Shown: positions 51,303 through 63,006, counted from the stretch's first letter. The stretch: DNA of 64,000 nucleotides from Bacteriovoracaceae bacterium (GCA_018675575.1 JABGXW010000145.1:1-64000); one strand, 5' to 3'. The notes: generated from the sequence alone by a model not told the origin. Program-made: numbers and translations.

Positions 51303-52121
51303 CTAGTAGTTTAGACTAGTTCTTACGGCCTTATGATCTGATAAGGTTTCGTTTTTATAGAGCCTTTCCTTCATAATAACTTTCGACTCATTGACCAAAA
51401 GTTCTGGAGAAGACCACACATAATCAATTCTCTTTGTGAGTTTACGATTAGTATATCCATTTCGCTCATCAGCAGAGAGATCTGGATTATCTAAAACATA
51501 TTCTTGGTGAGAATCATTAAGACCAAGAATGGTAGTCATGTGGTCATGTAAAAATGAACTCGGCTGAAAATTAAAATCACCAAGAAAGATAGTTTTATTT
51601 CCAGTGGAATTCTTTTGCACAAATTTAATTAATTGGTTCATTTGTGAAAGTCTTGGACCAAAGTCTTCTCCTTCAGCATTGAGATGAGTAACATAGACAT
51701 CGATTAATTCATTTTTAATATTGACTTGAGCAAAGAGAACTCCTTTGTTTGCTCGGCAATCCCAGCCCTGGCATTCTTTGTATTTTATCGTATCCGTTTT
51801 GACTATAGGATATTTTGAAATTAAAACTAATCCTGAACTCAGATTTAAAAGACATTTCTTAGGTCCATAAGCAACATGAGGAAAATTCTTGTGTTTTGTA
51901 ACTTTGAGAGCTGTTCGAGTAAAAGCTTCTTGGAATCCAATAAAATCTACGTCTTGTTTTGCAATTATTTTCTTTAGCACTTTAAATCGCTTAATTCGTT
52001 TCGCGATTGGAAATGGAAGACCCCATATATTATAGGTCATTACTTTAAGTTCACTAGCATTGATATTAAAAGCAGTTAATAATAGCAATAATGTTAGAGA
52101 TGACTGAATGAACGATTTCAT
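51303..52121 (-). CDS. Secreted sphingomyelinase-like phosphodiesterase (EEP family)
   Basis: Exported endonuclease/exonuclease/phosphatase-fold enzyme of 272 residues. Signal sequence MKSFIQSSLTLLLLLTAFNINA, then metal and catalytic motifs LKVMTYNIWG (Asn), DFIGFQEAF (Glu), YVTHLNAEG (His), TIFLGDFN (Asp/Asn), RIDYVW and LSDHKAV (Asp-His). The YNIWGLP opening and the pattern of two extra cysteines recall bacterial neutral sphingomyelinases and related lipid phosphodiesterases more than nucleases. GGGGAG precedes ATG 52121. Its place beside a phosphonolipid gene cluster is suggestive. Confidence 0.78.
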   Translation of the reverse strand: MKSFIQSSLTLLLLLTAFNINASELKVMTYNIWGLPFPIAKRIKRFKVLKKIIAKQDVDFIGFQEAFTRTALKVTKHKNFPHVAYGPKKCLLNLSSGLVLISKYPIVKTDTIKYKECQGWDCRANKGVLFAQVNIKNELIDVYVTHLNAEGEDFGPRLSQMNQLIKFVQKNSTGNKTIFLGDFNFQPSSFLHDHMTTILGLNDSHQEYVLDNPDLSADERNGYTNRKLTKRIDYVWSSPELLVNESKVIMKERLYKNETLSDHKAVRTSLNY

Positions 52122-52216: not shown

Positions 52217-53353
52217 TTAGCATTGTTGGAGTTGTAACTTATTGATTTTAATATATTCTTCAACTGTTGAAAGAAAGAACCCAATGTCTTTTGAGTTTAA
52301 TGTACCTATATTAGAAACTCTAAAGGTTTTTTCTTTAGCTCCCTTTCCGGGATAAATAGTAATTCCCCTTTCATAGAGAAAATCATGCATTTTATCAAAG
52401 TGATATTGAGAATCAGTGGGTTCAACAAAAGCTGTCAAAATTTTTGAATGTTTACTTTTTTCTATCAATGCTTTGAAGCCCAATTTTAACATTCCGTCAT
52501 GCATTTGTTCATAGAGGTCGGAATATCTTTTAGAGCGACCAGTTATTCCCTCTGATCTAAATTCATCAATTGCAGCTTTGAGTGCATATACAGTTTGGAC
52601 AGGGGGGGTAAAAAGAAATTGTTTTTTCTCTTTTTGATTTAAGAAATTATTATAAAGATTAAAATAGTAAGACTTCACTTTATAGGAGGCGATTTTTTTT
52701 AATTCAGAAGTCTTTGCGATGACAATCCCGATTCCAGCCATTCCCTGGATACATTTATTTGAAGATGAAATTATAAAATCAACAGGAGTGTCTTCAACAT
52801 CAAGTTCAATTCCAGCATAAGAAGACATAGCATCCAAAATAGTAATCATTTTAAATTCATCAGCAAGACTTTTTAATTCTTTAACAGGATTAAGTATACC
52901 GACTGTCGTTTCATGGTGAATAAAGGCCAAAGCTTTAGCATTTCTGTTCTTTAAATGTTCTCTTACCTTGCCAAGGTCAATGGAGTCCCCCCATGTGAAC
53001 TTAACTGTTGAAAATGGAATTTTGAATGCTTCACAGATCTGAGTCATCCTTTTTCCGTAGGCGCCATTGTCAATGATAACTATTTCTTCGCTTTCTTTTG
53101 TGCAAGAAGTTAAGCAAGCTTCCATGGCCCCTGTTCCAGATCCTCCTAAAAGAATTGCTTCATAATTATTTTTTCCATTAACTACATCGACGCAACCTTG
53201 ACGAATGTCATCCAATAAGTCTCCAAACTCTTGTTCCCGTGGACAGATATCTGTAACTACTTGTGAAAGTTTTACCTCTTGAGAAGTAGTGGCTGGTCCT
53301 GGATTCAGTAGAATTTTTCTAGGAATGACTTTTGTTAAAGTTTCGTTTTCCAT
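52217..53353 (-). CDS. phnW: 2-aminoethylphosphonate-pyruvate transaminase
   Basis: PLP aminotransferase interconverting phosphonoacetaldehyde and 2-aminoethylphosphonate. 378 residues: KILLNPGPATTS, ILLGGSGTGAMEA, HHETTVGILNP, LDAMSSYAGIELD and the PLP lysine in SSSNKCIQGMAGIG. In this context it most likely works in the biosynthetic direction, since phosphonopyruvate decarboxylase is encoded immediately upstream (1-bp overlap) and PEP mutase before that. Last gene of the seven-gene operon. No phosphonatase (phnX) is nearby, which argues against a catabolic role. Confidence 0.93.
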   Translation of the reverse strand: MENETLTKVIPRKILLNPGPATTSQEVKLSQVVTDICPREQEFGDLLDDIRQGCVDVVNGKNNYEAILLGGSGTGAMEACLTSCTKESEEIVIIDNGAYGKRMTQICEAFKIPFSTVKFTWGDSIDLGKVREHLKNRNAKALAFIHHETTVGILNPVKELKSLADEFKMITILDAMSSYAGIELDVEDTPVDFIISSSNKCIQGMAGIGIVIAKTSELKKIASYKVKSYYFNLYNNFLNQKEKKQFLFTPPVQTVYALKAAIDEFRSEGITGRSKRYSDLYEQMHDGMLKLGFKALIEKSKHSKILTAFVEPTDSQYHFDKMHDFLYERGITIYPGKGAKEKTFRVSNIGTLNSKDIGFFLSTVEEYIKINKLQLQQC

Positions 53354-54501
53354 TATAAACCTTTTAGAAATGATTTAAATCGTTTTGCAACTTCAAATGG
53401 TTTTAATGTCGGTCGGCCTAAATTTTTAGGAGATCCTGATTTAATTTTAAAGTGAACAAAACTAAGTTCAGGTTTATTCATATTACTTTTAACAAAATCT
53501 TCAAATTCATAACTATCATCTGTTGCCAGAATATTTTGATAACCTGTGGCCTTCGCAATTTCTGCAAAATTAATTCCTGATGAATAGGTCGCTTGACCTC
53601 CTGTTGAGTCATGAACACCATTATCTAATAATACATGAAATAATTTACCCTTAGATTTTAATCCTAGAGTACACATTGTTCCAAGCCTCATCATTAAAGC
53701 GCCATCACCATCAATGACACAAACAGGTTTATCTTTCTTAACTTCAGATATACCTAATCCAAGAACTGGAGCACAACCCATAGAACCCACCATGTAGATT
53801 TGATTAGAGTAGTCTCCAATTTCAAAAAGCTCTCTACCTGATTTTCCCGTCGTCGCAATAATGGGGAGATCCTTATATAGTTCAGATAAAACTTTTAATG
53901 CATCTGTTCTAGATGTAACTCCTTGGAGTTTTTCTTTTACAAGATATTGAAATGGGGTTTTAACTTCTGGACTCTCTTGATCTTTGGTCAAGGGACGAGC
54001 TTCAACATCACCTTTTCTCATAACAAAAAAGAATGGCATCTTACTTTTTGTCATAAAATAATCTGCTTCTTGAATTGCTTTTGAAATCTCCGTTTTCTCT
54101 CGTGGGAAGTAGGCCCATTTCACTTGCATAGTCTCTAATAACTTCGTAGTAATTTGTCCCATTAATTCATGTTGAGGTTCGTCACTTGTTCCACCAGGTT
54201 CACCTCTTAGCGTTACAATTCCTAAAAAAGGAACTTGAAATGTATAAGAAAGTGAAGTGAGTGGATTGACTGCATTTCCTAGACCTGAGTTTTGGAAAAT
54301 AACCACTGCCTTCTCCCCTGCTAAGGAGACTCCACTCGCTATTCCAACAGCATCTCCCTCATTTGTGGAGGGTAGAAAATTTACAATATCTGACTCAATG
54401 ACAGAATTAATTAGTGGTTTTAAGTAAGAACAAGGAGTTCCTGTAAAAAACTTAAACCCAAACTCATTACATTGTTCTAAAAAATCATTACCTGTGATCA
54501 T
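53353..54501 (-). CDS. aepY: Phosphonopyruvate decarboxylase
   Basis: Thiamine-diphosphate enzyme converting phosphonopyruvate to phosphonoacetaldehyde, the step that pulls the unfavourable PEP-mutase equilibrium. 382 residues. Catalytic Glu in PSTNEGDAVGIASG, FQNSGLGNAVNP, RGEPGGTSDEPQH, and the TPP motif VCVIDGDGALMMR with HVLLDNGVHDS downstream. Its start lies 22 bp after the mutase gene and its stop overlaps phnW by one base. Confidence 0.93.
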   Translation of the reverse strand: MITGNDFLEQCNEFGFKFFTGTPCSYLKPLINSVIESDIVNFLPSTNEGDAVGIASGVSLAGEKAVVIFQNSGLGNAVNPLTSLSYTFQVPFLGIVTLRGEPGGTSDEPQHELMGQITTKLLETMQVKWAYFPREKTEISKAIQEADYFMTKSKMPFFFVMRKGDVEARPLTKDQESPEVKTPFQYLVKEKLQGVTSRTDALKVLSELYKDLPIIATTGKSGRELFEIGDYSNQIYMVGSMGCAPVLGLGISEVKKDKPVCVIDGDGALMMRLGTMCTLGLKSKGKLFHVLLDNGVHDSTGGQATYSSGINFAEIAKATGYQNILATDDSYEFEDFVKSNMNKPELSFVHFKIKSGSPKNLGRPTLKPFEVAKRFKSFLKGL

Positions 54502-54523
54502 ATTTTACCTCGATGTATTTTGA

Positions 54524-56134
54524 TTAGAACAATTGACCTTTTTCAAAGTCTGAATAATTATCTACATCCATCCAATGCCCTTCAATATAAGAGACATTGA
54601 TTTTGATATCTTCAGCAGTTAACTCTCTGAATAAATCAGGAAGTTTAAGTTTGTTGAAATCATCTCTTCCTTTTAACTCTTCAAGCTTTAATTTAAGGAT
54701 ACTTGATCCTCTTTCTGATGTTTTTAAGATTCCTATCCACTCACCAGTAGCGTCACCGTTGAAATCAGCAAGTTTACAAAGTTCAGTATTCAATAGAGTA
54801 ACAGAATCTTGTGAATATGATTTTTTATTTAGTTCATTACATTGGACAAAATCTCCGACATAATCACTTTTTCTAGAACTTAAGTCACTATCAACGATAA
54901 TGTTAATATCGCCTCTCGCTTCTCTTAAAATATCTAAAATGTATGATCTAAAAACAATGTCACCGTATGAGATTGTTGTTTCTCCTTGAATTTCATCTTT
55001 CGCAAGGTAAAGAGATTGAAGCTCTCCCGTACTAGCAAAATCGTTATTATCTACAAATGAACAATTTAAATTTGTAAATTGATCTTTTCCAAATCCTCTG
55101 ACAATAGTAAGATCTCTAATTTCTTTGTCTTTAAATTGATCAATCATCTTTTTAACAATAGGAGTTCCATTTAGGCTAAGCATTGCTTTGGGTTTGTTTT
55201 GAGTAAGTTCTCCAAGTTCTTTGCCTTGACTTGCAGCTAAGATGATCCCTTTTTGAGATTTTTCCGATGTTAAATATAACTTTTCTGCTTCAGCTAGTTC
55301 TTTATCATTTTGAAGTCTAAAAACTTCTTTAACAGGAACAACTTTATCCTCAATATCGATGAGACTTTGTTTAGTAAAAATATTTGATGCTGTGTCTTGC
55401 ATCGTTTTAATTGAGGCCCGCAAGAGATGATTCGCCCAGATCGCCATGCTTACACCATGCTTTCTAAATTGATCAGTGGGAGTCGAATAGTATTTTGTTG
55501 GGACAATAACTACCGGGCATCTATCACCCCATTCTTTCATAAAAGAAAATATTTCATCTGGGTTCGTTTGCTTACTGTGCATTAGAATTGCAGTCGCGCC
55601 AGCTTGTCTATATGCCTCGGCCCTCTTAAGAGCTTCTTTTAGTCCCCAGCCAGCAATGAAGGCCTCAACTCTTGCAACAATACAAAAATCTTCATCTGTA
55701 CGTGCATCTAAGCCTGCTTTGATTTTTCCAGCAAACTCATCAATATTAGCAAGAGGTTGTTGTTCGCCTCTTAAAAAAGAATTTGTTTTAGGAAAGATTT
55801 TATCTTCGATACAGACTCCAGCAATTCCTCGCTGTTCAAGCTTCTTTACAAGTCTCATCATATTATTAAAGTTCCCGTAACCTGTATCACCATCTAATAA
55901 AAGAGGAATTTTTGTTGCGTCTGACATAAACTCAACGACTTCCAGAACTTGTGTCCAAGATGCTTCGTTGTTATCTCGAACTCCTAAAGCTGCAGATATT
56001 GAAAGTCCTGATCCCCAAATTCCATCAAATCCAGCTTCTTCAACTATTTTTGCTGAAAGTCCGTTATGCGCTTCCATAATAAATGATAGGTCTTTTGATG
56101 CGAGCATCTCTTTTAACTTAGTTGTTTTTTTCAT
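54524..56134 (-). CDS. pepM: Phosphoenolpyruvate mutase fused to a nucleotidyltransferase-like domain
   Basis: Forms the C-P bond by isomerising PEP to phosphonopyruvate. 536 residues. Residues ~1-285 are the mutase: [28 protein letters not shown] and the diagnostic [10 protein letters not shown]. Residues ~295-536 are an NTP-transferase fold as in PepM-PntC fusions (PntC attaches CMP to aminoethylphosphonate). The glycine-rich motif of this second domain is degenerate: [13 protein letters not shown] stands where LAAGxGxRLxxLT is expected, losing one Gly and the Arg; PKAMLSLNG and YGDIVF are kept. The intact second nucleotidyltransferase encoded by the operon may compensate. Start ATG 56134, 9 bp after the transporter gene. 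Confidence 0.94.
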
Positions 56135-56143
56135 AATGATTTC

Positions 56144-56764
56144 CTAATTGAAAAATAAGTTTTTTCCCATGAAAAGGCTTATGCACACCATGAGAGCTCC
56201 ACTTACTTTATTAAAATAACTTAAATATTTATCTTTGATTTTATTTTCAAATCTTTTTACAAATAATATGAGGAATAAAAACCAAACTGCTGAGCCAATT
56301 GCTAGGCCTAGAGCAACTGCAAAATGGTTTAGGGTTGTTGCTGGGTAAAGTGCAAGGGACTTTATAAATGCAGCCAATGCGGTCATTGAAAATATGAGGG
56401 TTGGATTTGAAGTATATAGAACAACTCCTAATAAGAATGCACCGACTAGTTTATGTATATCTTTTTCTTTTTTGAAGTCTGTAGAATCAACATTTTTAGC
56501 AAGCAGCTCCTTAACACCTAAAGCAAAAATGAGAATGATTCCAACTGTCTTAAGGACTTGGACGGTATTATCGTTAAACTCAACAAATGAAAGACCTGAC
56601 ATAATAATAAAGAAATAGATAAAGTCCATTAATGATCCCCCTAGAGCTATGCACATAGCGTTGAGAGATCCTTTTTTTACTTTAGTATTAATAACCCAGA
56701 TATTGATTGGTCCAATTGGGATACACATCAGGAAACCTATAATAAATCCTACTAAAAATGCCAT
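56144..56764 (-). CDS. LysE/RhtB-family transporter
   Basis: Inner-membrane protein of 206 residues with about six helices. The N-terminal GFLMCIPIGPINIWVI is the family signature (IPGPxN region), followed by GGSLMDFIYFF. LysE/RhtB proteins export amino acids. Within a phosphonate operon (1-bp overlap with the CDP-alcohol transferase gene) it might export an aminophosphonate or a precursor; this is inference from position. Confidence 0.82.
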   Translation of the reverse strand: MAFLVGFIIGFLMCIPIGPINIWVINTKVKKGSLNAMCIALGGSLMDFIYFFIIMSGLSFVEFNDNTVQVLKTVGIILIFALGVKELLAKNVDSTDFKKEKDIHKLVGAFLLGVVLYTSNPTLIFSMTALAAFIKSLALYPATTLNHFAVALGLAIGSAVWFLFLILFVKRFENKIKDKYLSYFNKVSGALMVCISLFMGKNLFFN

Positions 56765-57630
56765 TATACTTGCTCCCTCTTTAATTTATTATTCACACCA
56801 TTTTGGATCATGTACGTCATGAATACCCACATATTTGCGAGGAAGAATGCAAAGTATATATAAACTTCTAGTTCATTGATCATTAAGGCAATAGCTAGAA
56901 TACTGAGATGAGTTGAACCTGAAATAACACTCCAAAAAGGAAGAATTTTTTTATTATAAAGAATGTAAGCATCGCTATGATACTCAACTCTCTTCTTCTC
57001 ATTAGCTTGTTTGTCTGAAAAAATTAAAAAGAGAAAAAGTAGAAAACGATTGAATAATTCTTTTTTTTCTTTTTTTAACTTTTCATATTCTCTTTTATAT
57101 CGATCAATTTCACGTTTTCTTCCATTAGGATTACCTGATTGATAAAAGATTAATTGTTTTTTATAGAATGAATAAATGCCGACATGGACCATTAAAAGCA
57201 TGGCACATGGCCAAATCATATAAGGAAAATTTGTATCTGAATTTGCATAAGCAATTTTTAATCCAATAAACGTTCCAGTATAGAAATTGATAGAGGCGAG
57301 TAAATCAACAAACATGTCAATCAGCTCGCCATACATCGAGCCATTTCTTTTCATTCGAGCGAGCATTCCATCACAGCAATCAAGAATACCGAAGATAAGG
57401 ATACATAATCCTCCTTTGATAAAGCTCTCATGAGTTCCTTTCGATAAGAATTGACCTGCAATAATTGCAAAAAAGAGTGCCCCTAAAGAAAAGAGATTAG
57501 GTGTTAGGGGCAATTTGTAAGTTGCTTTAATAATGACATAGGCCAAGGGTCTATAAAATACAAAATCAAAAGGTTCTTCTAAGCTGAAGTCTTTTGTATT
57601 CTTTTTGTAGTCTTTGAGATTAAAACTCAT
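56764..57630 (-). CDS. CDP-alcohol phosphatidyltransferase
   Basis: Integral-membrane enzyme of 288 residues that moves a phospho- or phosphono-alcohol from a CMP donor to a lipid acceptor. The full catalytic motif D-x2-DG-x2-AR-x8-G-x3-D-x3-D is visible from DCCDGMLAR to GELIDMFVD. Several membrane helices surround it and a Lys/Glu-rich cytoplasmic loop (about 168-215) interrupts the fold. It overlaps both neighbours by one base. With the mutase and cytidylyltransferase genes beside it, a CMP-phosphonate donor and a diacylglycerol or ceramide acceptor are predicted. Confidence 0.88.
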   Translation of the reverse strand: MSFNLKDYKKNTKDFSLEEPFDFVFYRPLAYVIIKATYKLPLTPNLFSLGALFFAIIAGQFLSKGTHESFIKGGLCILIFGILDCCDGMLARMKRNGSMYGELIDMFVDLLASINFYTGTFIGLKIAYANSDTNFPYMIWPCAMLLMVHVGIYSFYKKQLIFYQSGNPNGRKREIDRYKREYEKLKKEKKELFNRFLLFLFLIFSDKQANEKKRVEYHSDAYILYNKKILPFWSVISGSTHLSILAIALMINELEVYIYFAFFLANMWVFMTYMIQNGVNNKLKREQV

Positions 57631-58409
57631 TATGCATTTACTCCAGTAAATCTCTTCTTTGCATCTTCATAATCTTCCGGGGTATCAATTTCAATCCATT
57701 TGTCAGAGGAGAGATTATGAATTCCAACATCATGCTTAAGTAAAAAGACGTTCATGAGATGTTCCCAGTTCTTGAGTCGATTTTCCTTTTGAGACAAGAA
57801 CTCATTAGCATCAGCTAAAAGATTTGCGGTGACTTTTTCTGTAAACTTCAAAATACCAATAGCTTCACCAGCAAAGGAGTAAGATTTAAGTTCTTCTTCT
57901 GAAACTGAACGTTTATCGACTGTTAATCTGGCAAAATTATTACTATCAACTAAAGTTTTGGCACATTCAATATCATTTAAAGATGCTTTACCCACCAGAA
58001 TTTGATTTTCCTCTGGGTCATTTGTAAAATCTTCTAATATCTTCGAATCGTAAACAAGATCGCCATCAAAAATTAAAATTCCTTGAGTGGCAACATCTAA
58101 TCCAATCTTAAGTGAATAAGTATTACCTAGATTTCTATAATCTTCATTAAGAACATAATTAATTTTAATTTGTTTTTCATATTTCTCTAAATGATTTCTA
58201 ATCATTTCTTCTTTAAAACCAAGCACAATTATAGATTCTTTAAAACCCAGTTTAATCCAAGTCTCAAAATGCCGATCTAGAATTGTTTTGCCGTTTAGCT
58301 CAAGTAAACATTTAGGATTGTCAGTAATTTCAGATATTCTTGATCCGAATCCTGCAACCAACAAAAGGGGTGTGAATTTCTTAAAGGCATTCATTGTTTT
58401 TGTATCCAT
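57630..58409 (-). CDS. Stand-alone nucleotidyltransferase (PntC-like)
   Basis: A 259-residue NTP-transferase protein. It has an intact nucleotide-binding motif: LLLVAGFGSRISEITDNPK, with Gly, Ser-Arg and Lys all kept, then LLELNGKTILDR, GNTYSLKIGL and the metal Asp in IFDGDLVYDS. This fits CTP:phosphocholine- or PntC-type cytidylyltransferases. Because the domain fused to the PEP mutase is degenerate at this motif, this protein is the better candidate for CMP activation of the aminophosphonate. Starts overlap neighbouring genes by 1 and 19 bp. Confidence 0.85.
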   Translation of the reverse strand: MDTKTMNAFKKFTPLLLVAGFGSRISEITDNPKCLLELNGKTILDRHFETWIKLGFKESIIVLGFKEEMIRNHLEKYEKQIKINYVLNEDYRNLGNTYSLKIGLDVATQGILIFDGDLVYDSKILEDFTNDPEENQILVGKASLNDIECAKTLVDSNNFARLTVDKRSVSEEELKSYSFAGEAIGILKFTEKVTANLLADANEFLSQKENRLKNWEHLMNVFLLKHDVGIHNLSSDKWIEIDTPEDYEDAKKRFTGVNA

Positions 58410-59314
58410 AATCTTTCCATTGTACGTTTGAGTACTTGGCCATTTTCACCAGTAAATTTCTCAACAGAAATAGCATCTTTTGCATCAGAAAAACAGGTTC
58501 TACCGTGCAGAACCTGATCATCAATTGTTACACAAATATTTCCAGCTTCTAGTGTAAACCGTTCTTGGTTTTTCGTGCTGTTGGTTAAGGCGTCCAGGAC
58601 ATCGATGGCAAACAATTGGTCGATTGTCATCGGTTTTTCGGCTTTGATATGGGCTGATTCCATATAGGGACGGAGATGTCTAAACTGAGGAGATTTATCA
58701 TCTTTATAGGTAATAATAGGAGCTTCATAGAGTTTATCTGCAACACCTCTCATTTCCCAAATATAGTTATTCTCTAAAGTTTCAAGAACTTCAGGAAAAT
58801 CAGTTTTGAGAATTTTATGAATTTTAAGTCCGTCGACAAGAATACTTTCTCCTCCAATAAATGCCGGTGAAATACATGATAAGAATAAGTAATTCCAAAG
58901 TTCTGGAAGATTCACGTTATCTGTATGCAGGGTTCCTCCTTCTCTGGTCTGATGATATCGAGCACCTGTATCCATAGATCCATGTCGGTCTCGATCATAA
59001 ACAGCAATTAGCTTTTGACCTTGCTCATTTTGAATTAAAGGTCGCCCAAATATTTGCCCAAAAACTAAAGCAGTACTGTGATGTGTTTTTATATGTTCGT
59101 TAAAATTTTCTTTTTTAGGCATTTTGATGAGAAGGGCCCGGTGTTGATCAACGAGATTTTTACATTCTAATAGCCAATCCGTTGTACCTGGGAGATCTGA
59201 TTTTAATGTTGAGTTTGAAAAAATGTCTTCATCAGAAAAGTCTGTTTTGAAAAACTGATGAACTTCTTCCACTACATTAGCTGGTGGTGTAACTGTTTTC
59301 ATAAACGTATTCAT
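58391..59314 (-). CDS. TauD/PhnY-like Fe(II)/2-oxoglutarate oxygenase
   Basis: Non-haem iron hydroxylase of the TauD/TfdA family, 307 residues. Iron ligands: HTD in GGTLHTDNVNLP and the distal His in DQVLHGRTCF; 2-oxoglutarate-binding Arg in LKRTMERLW. PhnY, a member of this family, hydroxylates 2-aminoethylphosphonate at C1. Being first in a phosphonolipid operon, it is predicted to make 1-hydroxy-2-aminoethylphosphonate or to act on the finished lipid. GAGG stands eight bases before ATG 59314; promoter at 59343-59371. Confidence 0.85.
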   Translation of the reverse strand: MNTFMKTVTPPANVVEEVHQFFKTDFSDEDIFSNSTLKSDLPGTTDWLLECKNLVDQHRALLIKMPKKENFNEHIKTHHSTALVFGQIFGRPLIQNEQGQKLIAVYDRDRHGSMDTGARYHQTREGGTLHTDNVNLPELWNYLFLSCISPAFIGGESILVDGLKIHKILKTDFPEVLETLENNYIWEMRGVADKLYEAPIITYKDDKSPQFRHLRPYMESAHIKAEKPMTIDQLFAIDVLDALTNSTKNQERFTLEAGNICVTIDDQVLHGRTCFSDAKDAISVEKFTGENGQVLKRTMERLWIQKQ

Positions 59315-59387: not shown

Positions 59388-59434
59388 TTTGTCACAAATT
59401 TTGAGGAGAGGAAATATTGTGACAAATATCACAA
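59388..59434. promoter_or_regulatory. CRP/FNR-like palindrome and extra half-site in the divergent promoter region
   Basis: TTGTGA-N6-TCACAA at 59417-59434 is a perfect palindrome of the CRP/FNR-family form TGTGA-N6-TCACA. A third copy of TCACAA lies at 59392-59397; TTTGTCACAA (59388-59397) and TTGTGACAAA (59417-59426) also form a 10-bp inverted repeat that brackets the ribosome site of the regulator gene. The palindrome covers the regulator's GTG start. The binding protein is unknown. Confidence 0.5.
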
Positions 59435-59952
59435 GCCAAGAGTTTGGCGATAGATTAAAACTTACATATGTAATCATCGGTATTTTTCTACTTATCGTGC
59501 TAGATGTTCTCACTGACTTTCTATTTAAAATTCCAGAAAGCAAACTTATTTTTAAAGCAATACTTGCTGGTGGTAACCTCATTTTCATGGGTTATCTTGT
59601 TTACTTTATCTGGAACAAGTTCGATAGAGATGACGCCATTAAGCATGGTCTAACGCGCGCCAAGTTAAAGGCCCAGGCTGATGCAGATCGATATGAATCT
59701 AAGGCCATCGAATTAACAGATAGATTCGAAGATTTTATAGCTAGACAATTTAAAAACTGGGAACTTAGTCCTAGTGAAAAGGAAATTGCCCATTTGCTCC
59801 TGGTTGGAAAGAGTTCCAAGGAAATTGCACAGACGCGTTATACTTCTGAAAGAACAATTCGAAATCAATGTCGATTTATATATGAGAAATCGGGTTGTGG
59901 AGGCCGATCAGAGTTATCAGCCTTTTTCTTCAATACATTTATAAAACAGTAA
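59419..59952 (+). CDS. Membrane-anchored LuxR-type regulator
   Basis: A 177-residue protein from GTG 59419, chosen because GAGGAGAGG lies just upstream; TTG 59389 has no ribosome site. Two membrane helices (about 12-32, YVIIGIFLLIVLDVLTDFLF, and 39-60) are followed by a linker and a C-terminal LuxR/GerE helix-turn-helix: LSPSEKEIAHLLLVGKSSKE, then RTIRNQCRFIYEKSGCGGR. No receiver or autoinducer domain, so the membrane part may sense the envelope directly. It is divergent from the phosphonate operon (104 bp between starts) and is its likely regulator; this is inference from position. Confidence 0.83.
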   Translation: MTNITSQEFGDRLKLTYVIIGIFLLIVLDVLTDFLFKIPESKLIFKAILAGGNLIFMGYLVYFIWNKFDRDDAIKHGLTRAKLKAQADADRYESKAIELTDRFEDFIARQFKNWELSPSEKEIAHLLLVGKSSKEIAQTRYTSERTIRNQCRFIYEKSGCGGRSELSAFFFNTFIKQ

Positions 59953-59953
59953 T

Positions 59954-60697
59954 TTAAAAAAACGAGTAAATAAAACCTAAAACAAGTCTCACTGATTGCT
60001 TTTTATGTGTCGTAGGTGATGACGCTATTGTGTCACCATAATACTTTTGGCCAATATTTATAAAATACTGCCAAGGACCATCTGTATAAACTGTTCGGAT
60101 ATTTAAACCATAATTTGTAGCAGCAGAACCATCGTAGGTGGCCCTATTTCTCGATAGGTCAATCTCACTGGGCTTCACTCCAAAGTAATAATTCACGTAA
60201 TGATCATTCCAATGTTGATAGAAAGGTCTAGGACTAATCATAAACTTTCCAAAATTAAATTTAGGAGCATAGGTTATGGTAATGACTGATCCATTACTTT
60301 TATTTTGTATATCTTTATAGTATTGAAAAGTCAGTTGATAAATATTAATTAGACCACCTAAAAATATGGAACGTACTCTTTCATCCATATTTGGACCCTC
60401 ATAGGGTTCGCCCTCATACAGAAGGGTTGCTGCTAATTTAAGATCTTTTTTATGGAGTAATGCGACTCCGCCACCATCTTTATTAATAACTACAGGACCA
60501 ATTCTAAACATTATGCTTGGATAAGGTTCAATGATAGGATCAGAGCGAAAAAATAGACGGTGATTCTCTTTTCGTATATTGTCCTCTAAGTTGACAGCTG
60601 GACCTAATTTGAGTTCAACTAATTTTTCTGCATATATAACTACAGGAAAACAACATAAATAGGCGATTAAGACTAAGAGAGCCCTTGGATTGATAAT
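59954..60697 (-). CDS. MipA/OmpV-like outer-membrane protein with non-AUG start
   Basis: Predicted outer-membrane barrel of about 247 residues. An internal ATG at 60511 would give only 185 residues and lose the N-terminus, but the frame is open further up and encodes a signal peptide (INPRALLVLIAYLCCFPVV, cut near YA-EKL) followed by LKLGPAVNLEDN. No ATG, GTG or TTG lies between that signal and the upstream TAA; the strong AAGGAG at 60707-60702 points to ATT 60697 or ATC 60694. The barrel part has GPVVINKDGGGVALL, YEGPNMDERVRS and a C-terminal LVLGFIYSFF, typical of MipA/OmpV. Its beginning overlaps the end of the MMPL gene. Confidence 0.65.
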   Translation of the reverse strand: MINPRALLVLIAYLCCFPVVIYAEKLVELKLGPAVNLEDNIRKENHRLFFRSDPIIEPYPSIMFRIGPVVINKDGGGVALLHKKDLKLAATLLYEGEPYEGPNMDERVRSIFLGGLINIYQLTFQYYKDIQNKSNGSVITITYAPKFNFGKFMISPRPFYQHWNDHYVNYYFGVKPSEIDLSRNRATYDGSAATNYGLNIRTVYTDGPWQYFINIGQKYYGDTIASSPTTHKKQSVRLVLGFIYSFF

Positions 60698-63006
60698 GGT
60701 CTCCTTTTTTTATTTATTGTTTTCCAACTTAAATAATTTAGAAAAACAGGTCTTACCATCATACATATAAAATACATTCCTATTTGTCCGAGAACTGAAA
60801 TCCAGGCGATGCCATTTAATAACTTGGCCTCCGCCAAAAATAATGATCCAAATCCGATTAATGTTGTTGCTAAGGAAAGGTGAATCGCTTGTGCAGATAG
60901 TTTAGAGCTTTTTAGAGAATTGTAAGACTCTAGTTCTCTATGGTGGATATGAACGCCCATATCTATTCCTGAAGCGAGAATCGCGGGGAACATTCCAACA
61001 TTCATTATTGTAAATCTCACTTCAAATAGCCCCATCAGTCCAAAAAGAACTGAAATCCCAAGTATCAATTGAATTTCTAATGTTAAGGCTGAGGAAATGG
61101 ATTTAAAATCTATTAAGAAAGTTATAAATGCACCAATCAAAAACATAATAATAATTACTTTTCCATCTTCTACGATATGATCAAGAATCTCAACAAAAAC
61201 TAATGTATCTGAACCAATTTTGGTTTTAGGAAACTCTTTTTTGGTTGCCCTAAGTAGAGTCGCAAATTCATTTAATTCGTCTCGTGTATCAAGTTCCTTA
61301 TTTGGGTAGATTAGGACAATACTTCCGGATTTACCAAAAGAATTCTTTATGTGGGGAGGGAGGTCTTCTCGGGTATAAACACCTACTTCAAGCCACGAGC
61401 GAATTTTCTTGGCATCTATTCCTGTTTTTTCATGAAGTTCTTGATCAGAAATATCTTTAACAAGATTTTTTAATTTTTTAACTTTCCTCGCTCTTGATTT
61501 GATCTTTTTTGGAATGATCGTTCTAATTGAAACAACATCTTGGACAATTTCTTTATATTTTTTCTGTTCAATAAATTTAACAACTTTTTCAGCCGTTTTT
61601 TTATCAGGGGCCAAAATCCCTGCTGGCGAAGTCGATTTTCCATAGAGTGTTTCACTTAGTGCCTTAAGATCTCTCGTTTCTTTTGATAAATCTCGCATTC
61701 GAGTGAAATCATACTCAAACTCTGTTTGAAAAGCACCGTAAACAAGAAATGGGATGGCCAATAGTAAGAACTTTAAGTGTTTGACTTTGAAAGGATAAAA
61801 TCCAAAACATCTAACAGTTTTTTGTAAAAATATTTTTTCGTTTAAAACTTTTCCTGATGCGGGCAATATCGACATAAACACGATGAAAATAGAGATGATT
61901 CCAAAACCTGCAATGATACCTAGTTCTGAAAATCCTCGAAACTCGCTAATGTATAGGCAGAGAAAAGCAATTGCGGTTGTAAGAGCTGCTGAAAATAATG
62001 CTCTTCCTGTTTTTGAATAGGTTGCTAATAAAGCCTCTTCCTTAGAGAGCCCTTCATTAATTTCTTGATAATACCTTCTAATGAGGTGGATTCCATAATC
62101 AGCACCAAGTCCAGCCAGAATAGCGAGCAAGAATCCAGTAAGGATGTTGATTTGACCTACTAGGTAGTACGCAATTCCAGTAGTAAAGCCTAAGGCCAAG
62201 ATGACCCCAGAAATGGTGACAAGGGCGGCCCTTAAACTACCAAGTCCTAAAAATAAGAGCAACGAAATTACAATAGTTGAAAAGATACCAGTCTTACCTA
62301 TATCCCTTTCCATTTGTTTAGTATCGCGTACTTTTTCTACATACCTACCAATAATATTGAATTTTTTTCCTTTTAATATTGAAGCAACAATTGATTCTAC
62401 TTGGTTACTTAATGTTTCGGAACGAGAAAGGTCTACGGATTCAAAAATAGGTTTAACTAAAAGAAGAGCATATTTTTTGTCTTTAGACAGAAAATATTTG
62501 TTAGAATCATTATCTTTTTTAAAGTCTCTAAAAAACTGTTTTGCCTTTGTTATATTGTCTTCTCGATCTTCAGCTGTCTCCAGTCCAAAGTTCATCATAC
62601 TTGATTTTCCTTTATCAAATAAAATTTTGGCATTTCTTCTAAGTTTCTTAAATTCTTTTTTCTCAAGTATATAAAGTGATTTATCTTCTAAAAGATATTC
62701 TTCAGTATTATAAAAAACATATTTCACTTCTTTATTTAATTGAATTTTTTCAGCAATAGGTTCTAAAAACTGTTGTGGTCTATCCATCGGGCCAAGTAAA
62801 ACCATTAAGTGACCAACTCCACCTATATCATCTGAAACAGTATTCATTTCTTTTACTGCAGGATTATCTTCAGGAAGTAGGTTGCTGAGAGACAAATTTA
62901 TTGGCAAGTAAGGAGCTTTAGAAAATCCGAAAGCTGACAAGAGTATAACTACCACTAGGAAAATATATTTATACTTGAAATTTAAATGGACCAATCTTTT
63001 CGTCAT
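60673..63006 (-). CDS. MMPL/RND-family transporter
   Basis: Inner-membrane RND-type exporter of 777 residues with the two-halved MMPL layout: TM1 (about 12-29), a periplasmic loop to ~230, a block of helices (VISLLLFLGLGSLRAALVTI, INILTGFLLAILAGLGADYG), a second periplasmic loop (~420-610) and a second helix block (GMFPAILASGIDMGVHIHHR). The AGLGADYGIH and ASGIDMGVHI segments hold the Asp-bearing proton-relay positions of this family. Many relatives export lipids or hopanoids. It lies between TolC-like and MipA-like genes with tiny spacing. Confidence 0.88.
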   Translation of the reverse strand: MTKRLVHLNFKYKYIFLVVVILLSAFGFSKAPYLPINLSLSNLLPEDNPAVKEMNTVSDDIGGVGHLMVLLGPMDRPQQFLEPIAEKIQLNKEVKYVFYNTEEYLLEDKSLYILEKKEFKKLRRNAKILFDKGKSSMMNFGLETAEDREDNITKAKQFFRDFKKDNDSNKYFLSKDKKYALLLVKPIFESVDLSRSETLSNQVESIVASILKGKKFNIIGRYVEKVRDTKQMERDIGKTGIFSTIVISLLLFLGLGSLRAALVTISGVILALGFTTGIAYYLVGQINILTGFLLAILAGLGADYGIHLIRRYYQEINEGLSKEEALLATYSKTGRALFSAALTTAIAFLCLYISEFRGFSELGIIAGFGIISIFIVFMSILPASGKVLNEKIFLQKTVRCFGFYPFKVKHLKFLLLAIPFLVYGAFQTEFEYDFTRMRDLSKETRDLKALSETLYGKSTSPAGILAPDKKTAEKVVKFIEQKKYKEIVQDVVSIRTIIPKKIKSRARKVKKLKNLVKDISDQELHEKTGIDAKKIRSWLEVGVYTREDLPPHIKNSFGKSGSIVLIYPNKELDTRDELNEFATLLRATKKEFPKTKIGSDTLVFVEILDHIVEDGKVIIIMFLIGAFITFLIDFKSISSALTLEIQLILGISVLFGLMGLFEVRFTIMNVGMFPAILASGIDMGVHIHHRELESYNSLKSSKLSAQAIHLSLATTLIGFGSLFLAEAKLLNGIAWISVLGQIGMYFICMMVRPVFLNYLSWKTINKKRRPLSIQGLS

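Follow-up and report, generated by a model that had tools for sequence, protein, structure and literature searches.

A compact seven-gene operon in the genome of a member of the Bacteriovoracaceae is predicted to make a 1-hydroxy-2-aminoethylphosphonate (HAEP) head group for a phosphonolipid and to place it most likely on ceramide, as in the lipid of Bacteriovorax (Bdellovibrio) stolpii, a reading to which we give a probability of about 0.6. Taken part by part, a lipid of the 2-aminoethylphosphonate (AEP) type is very probably the product, its head group is probably hydroxylated, and ceramide is a somewhat better than even choice of acceptor. Gene content, gene order, motifs and co-occurrence are established directly. 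In the proposed pathway, PEP would be converted to phosphonopyruvate by the PEP mutase (PepM), to phosphonoacetaldehyde by phosphonopyruvate decarboxylase (Ppd) and to AEP by the transaminase (PhnW). For the later steps we infer the oxygenase substrate and site, the nucleotide, the acceptor lipid and the role of the LysE-type protein as follows: the TauD-type oxygenase would hydroxylate AEP, or the CMP ester of AEP, at C1 to give HAEP; the stand-alone PntC-like enzyme would couple hydroxy-AEP to CMP; the CDP-alcohol phosphatidyltransferase (CAPT) would transfer the head group to a lipid alcohol, for which ceramide, produced through a serine palmitoyltransferase (SPT)-GNAT-SDR gene set, is the likeliest candidate; and LysE may help with translocation.

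The seven minus-strand genes with several 1-bp overlaps that an earlier note had described were all found as open reading frames at 52217-59314 of the window (the whole 64-kb stretch of DNA analysed), and the domain calls agree (Table 1). They are transcribed in the order oxygenase (Pfam TauD), nucleotidyltransferase (NTP; NTP_transf_3), CAPT (CDP-OH_P_transf), LysE-type transporter (LysE), PEP mutase fusion (PEP_mutase + NTP_transf_3), Ppd (TPP enzyme) and PhnW/AepZ (Aminotran_5), and are so tightly packed, with successive spacings of -19, -1, -1, +9, +22 and -1 bp (minus denoting overlap), that a single operon is likely. The base composition of the operon gave no sign of foreign origin, and a promoter scan found 42 candidates against 37.7 expected, that is, not above chance. 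The LuxR/GerE-type gene divergent from the oxygenase gene probably encodes the operon regulator, and a homologue occupies the same divergent position at two related loci (L020 and L021). A terminator-like 10-bp hairpin followed by TTTTT, situated within the 3' portion of the oxygenase coding sequence, could attenuate the downstream genes.

Table 1. Genes of the predicted operon and neighbouring features in the 64-kb window.
Feature	Position	Strand	Evidence
TauD-family Fe(II)/2-oxoglutarate oxygenase, 307 aa, proposed AEP C1-hydroxylase	58391..59314	-	Pfam TauD 1.3e-18
Stand-alone PntC-like cytidylyltransferase, 259 aa, GxGSR...PK intact	57630..58409	-	PDB Tde-PntC 6pd1 4e-14
CAPT, 288 aa, proposed head-group transferase	56764..57630	-	Pfam 1.3e-8; full family motif
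LysE-type membrane transporter, 206 aa	56144..56764	-	Pfam LysE 7.6e-21
PEP mutase (residues 1-289) + MobA-like nucleotidyltransferase domain (about 293-536)	54524..56134	-	TIGR02320; 1m1b
Phosphonopyruvate decarboxylase, 382 aa	53353..54501	-	TIGR03297 above cut-off
AEP transaminase PhnW/AepZ, 378 aa	52217..53353	-	TIGR03301 above cut-off
LuxR/GerE-type protein, probable regulator	59389..59952	+	Pfam GerE 2e-6
Terminator-like hairpin	58494..58516	-	
Endonuclease/exonuclease/phosphatase-family gene	51303..52121		
MipA-like outer membrane protein	59954..60511		
HpnN/BstA-like RND transporter	60673..63006		

AEP synthesis by PepM, Ppd and PhnW, as claimed in that note, is borne out by all three enzymes, which score above the curated NCBIfam equivalog cut-offs: 399 bits against 319.6 for the mutase (TIGR02320), 391 against 312.5 for the decarboxylase (TIGR03297) and 381 against 360.8 for PhnW/AepZ (TIGR03301). 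The mutase also carries the PepM signature EDKxxxxxNS and matches the solved PEP mutase 1m1b at 1e-136.

The mutase fusion and the separate nucleotidyltransferase are likewise both present, with a refinement concerning the fused domain. In Rice et al. (PMC6697681), PntC is defined by the motif GXG(T/S)RX4-8PK, and its Arg15Ala, Lys25Ala and Lys153Ala variants have less than 10% activity. The stand-alone enzyme carries this motif together with the equivalents of Arg15 and Lys25 (GFGSRISEITDNPK); GxGxR...PK and a DK lysine are conserved in an alignment of its homologues, and Tde-PntC is its best PDB match. The mutase-fused domain, in contrast, departs from the motif, with ASQGKEL in place of GxGxR (ASRGxEL in most relatives). 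The arginine is missing at this position in 15 of 15 aligned mutase fusions, and likewise in the fusions of Burkholderia, Mycetohabitans, Cupriavidus, Roseomonas and genome G016, each of which adjoins an intact stand-alone NTP. Because the fused domain lacks the PntC arginine, the stand-alone enzyme is likely the operon's cytidylyltransferase (PntC), and the fused domain is probably impaired or has a role other than the PntC step. Such a degenerate domain suggests a reason for the second nucleotidyltransferase in PepM-fused clusters. At the position of PntC Glu104, which contacts the AEP amine, a phmmer alignment shows that the stand-alone enzyme shares an Asp with LicC, and Glu196 is kept; as a speculation, the change from Glu to Asp may make room for the hydroxyl.

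Membership of the oxygenase in the TauD-type Fe(II)/2-oxoglutarate (2OG) family is secure. Its best PDB sequence match is the phosphonate hydroxylase FrbJ (3e-7), followed by TtnM, gamma-butyrobetaine dioxygenase and, more weakly, TmpA, and an AlphaFold2 model of medium quality (pLDDT 75) matches the folds of TtnM, CsiD/GlaH, TmpA, FrbJ and BBOX1 at an identity of only 12-20%. The facial triad HxD...H (H130, D132 and H270) is invariant in 10 homologues, as are R297 and R301, which we take to be candidate counterparts of the 2-oxoglutarate and oxyanion arginines of TauD. The protein falls below all NCBIfam equivalog cut-offs. It shares its fold, metal ligands and phosphonate-pathway context with FrbJ and TmpA, which are TauD/BBOX-type phosphonate hydroxylases, but is remote from them in sequence (13-20% over the fold). 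TmpA, which hydroxylates an AEP derivative at C1, is a catabolic enzyme and exceeds the present protein by about 60 residues. A phosphonate-type 2OG oxygenase in the FrbJ/TmpA neighbourhood is thus supported, and the genomic context suggests AEP as its probable substrate and C1 as the probable site. A search of phages returned no such oxygenase. In plasmids, all matches were generic TauD proteins (24-29% identity), and neither of two annotated neighbourhoods examined was phosphonate-related.

As to the lipid step, the CAPT motif is complete (D84xxD87GxxAR...G101xxxD105xxxD109), with its residues invariant in 14 homologues. The CAPT model (pLDDT 91.6) has CMP-bound AF2299 as its best fold match and also matches PIP synthases, a fold that leaves the acceptor undisclosed, so that the model does not tell ceramide from diacylglycerol. 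The window's genome contains one SPT-like gene, whose closest PDB entries are serine palmitoyltransferases (4.5e-113) and which scores 496 bits against the NF047600 cut-off of 640. It lies on another contig than the operon, and next after it come genes for a GNAT and an SDR protein, an arrangement resembling the bacterial ceramide synthesis genes Spt/bCerS/CerR (PMC11087976, PMC11334938); by this context, the GNAT and SDR products are putatively bCerS-like and CerR-like, respectively. SPT occurs in 21 of 21 family genomes carrying the mutase fusion, G100 being counted from an SPT fragment at a contig edge, versus 47 of 108 without it (p=2.7e-7), a value inflated by shared ancestry, since 14 of the 21 belong to one genus. 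SPT is common also without the operon. Counted by genus, the figures are 8/8 and 22/40 (p=0.018). Two genomes of the same genus (G033 and G066) have SPT and lack the operon, indicating that the operon was gained or lost among close relatives. The lipid proposal in the earlier note is supported by the CAPT, by the ceramide genes of the window's genome and by the SPT of all genomes that have the operon; the ceramide genes and SPT favour ceramide as the acceptor.

In another, rather unlikely reading, the head group is unchanged but CMP-(hydroxy)AEP is transferred to diacylglycerol, which would make the product a glycerophosphonolipid instead of one built on ceramide. CDP-alcohol transferases commonly use diacylglycerol-type substrates, the CAPT model matches AF2299 and PIP synthases and no ceramide enzyme, and no close SPT was found in SAR11 genomes with an oxygenase-PntC-CAPT module (best matches 25% identity, E 5e-6). 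It is opposed by the presence of SPT in all family genomes with the mutase fusion, by the sphingolipid nature of the related B. stolpii lipid, and by Caulobacter CC_1152-CC_1161 (PMC11324152), where a nucleotidyltransferase and a CDP-alcohol-type enzyme are likewise proposed for ceramide head groups, although the head group there is phosphoglycerate and not a phosphonate.

Within the family, the predicted phosphonolipid operon recurs in a restricted set of genomes. Clear oxygenase homologues were found in 10 of the 95 family genomes searched first, and the operon gene order recurs around the oxygenase in those 10 at 29-76% protein identity, with some contigs ending inside the operon; this repetition, extended by further contigs of the genome collection, argues against chance. 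When 369 genomes of the phylum were searched with a profile, the oxygenase turned up in 20. Each of these belongs to this family (20/129 genomes) and has the mutase operon, and five of the 20 carry a second, more distant full-length copy. Variants include a GNAT gene between the mutase and Ppd genes (L023, L024), an M13 peptidase gene between those for Ppd and PhnW in L139, where the domain was tested (similar genes in L056, L060 and L061), the absence of PhnW nearby (L023, L025) and a missing LysE (L027); in most operons the LysE gene adjoins CAPT. In a collection of named genomes, 23 oxygenase loci were identified. Among their sources are Bacteriovorax sp. BSW11_IV, a cultured isolate that carries the operon (L019/L046), numerous Bacteriovorax MAGs and four records from Pelagibacteraceae (SAR11). 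One contig labelled Methylococcaceae UBA2778 (L049) also carries the operon, reflecting either horizontal transfer or mis-binning. A stand-alone, more distant oxygenase copy lies outside the operon at L028:9739-10692, with similar second copies in other genomes of genus g15.

Loci with only part of this gene set help to separate its modules. In G016, the mutase fusion, Ppd, NTP and PhnW lie in a glycan locus that has no oxygenase, CAPT or LysE. In the SPT-positive genome G037 (L187:6993-10364), a 618-aa PntC-AEP transaminase fusion resembling Tde1415 adjoins LysE and CAPT, and the oxygenase is absent. These contrasts suggest that CAPT belongs with LysE in a lipid module, to which the oxygenase is an addition. 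The possibility that AEP decorates a surface glycan or other polymer, with CAPT serving a glycan carrier lipid, appears quite improbable: many of the PepM clusters in bacteria are regarded as phosphonoglycan clusters (PMC6697681), and the SAR11 and G016 loci sit among glycan genes (for SAR11, see also PMC8931226), but no recognised glycosyltransferase or LicD gene was found within the operon of the window or those of its relatives, and the glycan-type locus of G016 is the very one without CAPT, LysE and oxygenase.

The predicted phosphonolipid module itself has counterparts outside the family. SAR11 loci (L064:745-6180, L065:6609-12071, L067:9719-12925) carry, in this order, the oxygenase gene, a PntC-like NTP gene and a TylF-like methyltransferase gene, with CAPT following the methyltransferase gene in L064 and L067 and lying just upstream in L065; in L064 and L065, a nearby mutase is fused to another cytidylyltransferase domain, PF01467. 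A Burkholderiaceae cluster (L128, L129 and L132, representing Burkholderia, Mycetohabitans and Cupriavidus) encodes CAPT, a HalD-like 2OG oxygenase, an LPG_synthase_TM protein, NTP, an AepX fusion, AepY and a transaminase; Mycetohabitans also has dxs and a gene for an MMPL transporter in the vicinity. This cluster matches the present operon in CAPT, 2OG oxygenase, NTP, AepX fusion, AepY and transaminase, but its oxygenase is of another family and the LPG_synthase_TM protein replaces LysE, which looks like independent recruitment of an unrelated oxygenase for the same chemistry. It may tentatively be proposed, at slightly less than even odds, that the TauD-type oxygenase founds a new class of biosynthetic AEP/CMP-AEP C1-hydroxylases, a portable head-group module with its own cytidylyltransferase in predatory bacteria and SAR11, for whose task Burkholderiaceae recruited an unrelated enzyme. 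It is still less probable than a glycan role that the oxygenase hydroxylates another part of the lipid, such as the long-chain base or acyl chain: it heads the operon, its substrate is assigned by context, and the lipids of B. stolpii are reported to contain long-chain bases with hydroxyl groups as well as 2-hydroxy acids, but the pairing with a PntC gene extends to SAR11, whose genomes yielded no close SPT, the closest relatives of known function use small phosphonates or amino/carboxylic acids as substrates, and the equivalent Burkholderiaceae operon carries an unrelated 2OG oxygenase.

The sphingophosphonolipid with a HAEP head group that the earlier note attributed to B. stolpii was confirmed by PMC8154272 and PMC12366243, both citing Watanabe et al. 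2001, and is also described in PMC6148460; its HAEP enantiomer is not established, according to PMC12366243. This lipid corresponds to the predicted product and comes from the same predatory group, with ceramide genes present here, but it is known as chemistry only, and here such a lipid is predicted from the genes of another genome. The open literature searched assigns no genes to the B. stolpii lipid. That further bacteria make HAEP has been postulated from genomic data (Yu 2013 and another reference, both cited in PMC12366243), which means that the general idea has precedents. Judged by the literature searched, the novelty lies in a concrete operon in the Bacteriovorax family, a candidate hydroxylase of the TauD type, the degeneracy of the fused domain, the SAR11 module and the counterpart that lacks the oxygenase. 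The operon would offer the first candidate genes, as a complete testable set with a candidate hydroxylase, for a lipid type known since 2001. Phosphonyl tailoring (Pnt) clusters such as that of Treponema denticola Tde1415 (PMC6697681) share the PepM-fused NTP domain, separate PntC, Ppd and AEP transaminase, but the present operon adds CAPT, LysE and the TauD oxygenase and lacks LicD and glycosyltransferase. SAR11 bacteria emerge as possible makers of hydroxylated phosphonates. This bears on the origin of the hydroxy-AEP degraded by environmental bacteria, a compound whose sources are poorly known (PMC8154272, PMC12366243).

Several neighbouring genes were also considered. The endonuclease/exonuclease/phosphatase-family gene 95 bp downstream, whose product is predicted to be secreted and weakly matches sphingomyelinase, was rejected as an operon member given this gap and its absence from other loci. 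The HpnN-like RND gene was likewise rejected as a general operon partner, as a close relative adjoins the operon only in L063/L136; there, this relative (43%), the sole close one observed, lies immediately beside the oxygenase gene, a position hinting at lipid transport. MipA homologues flank the operon in the window and also in L020 and L027.
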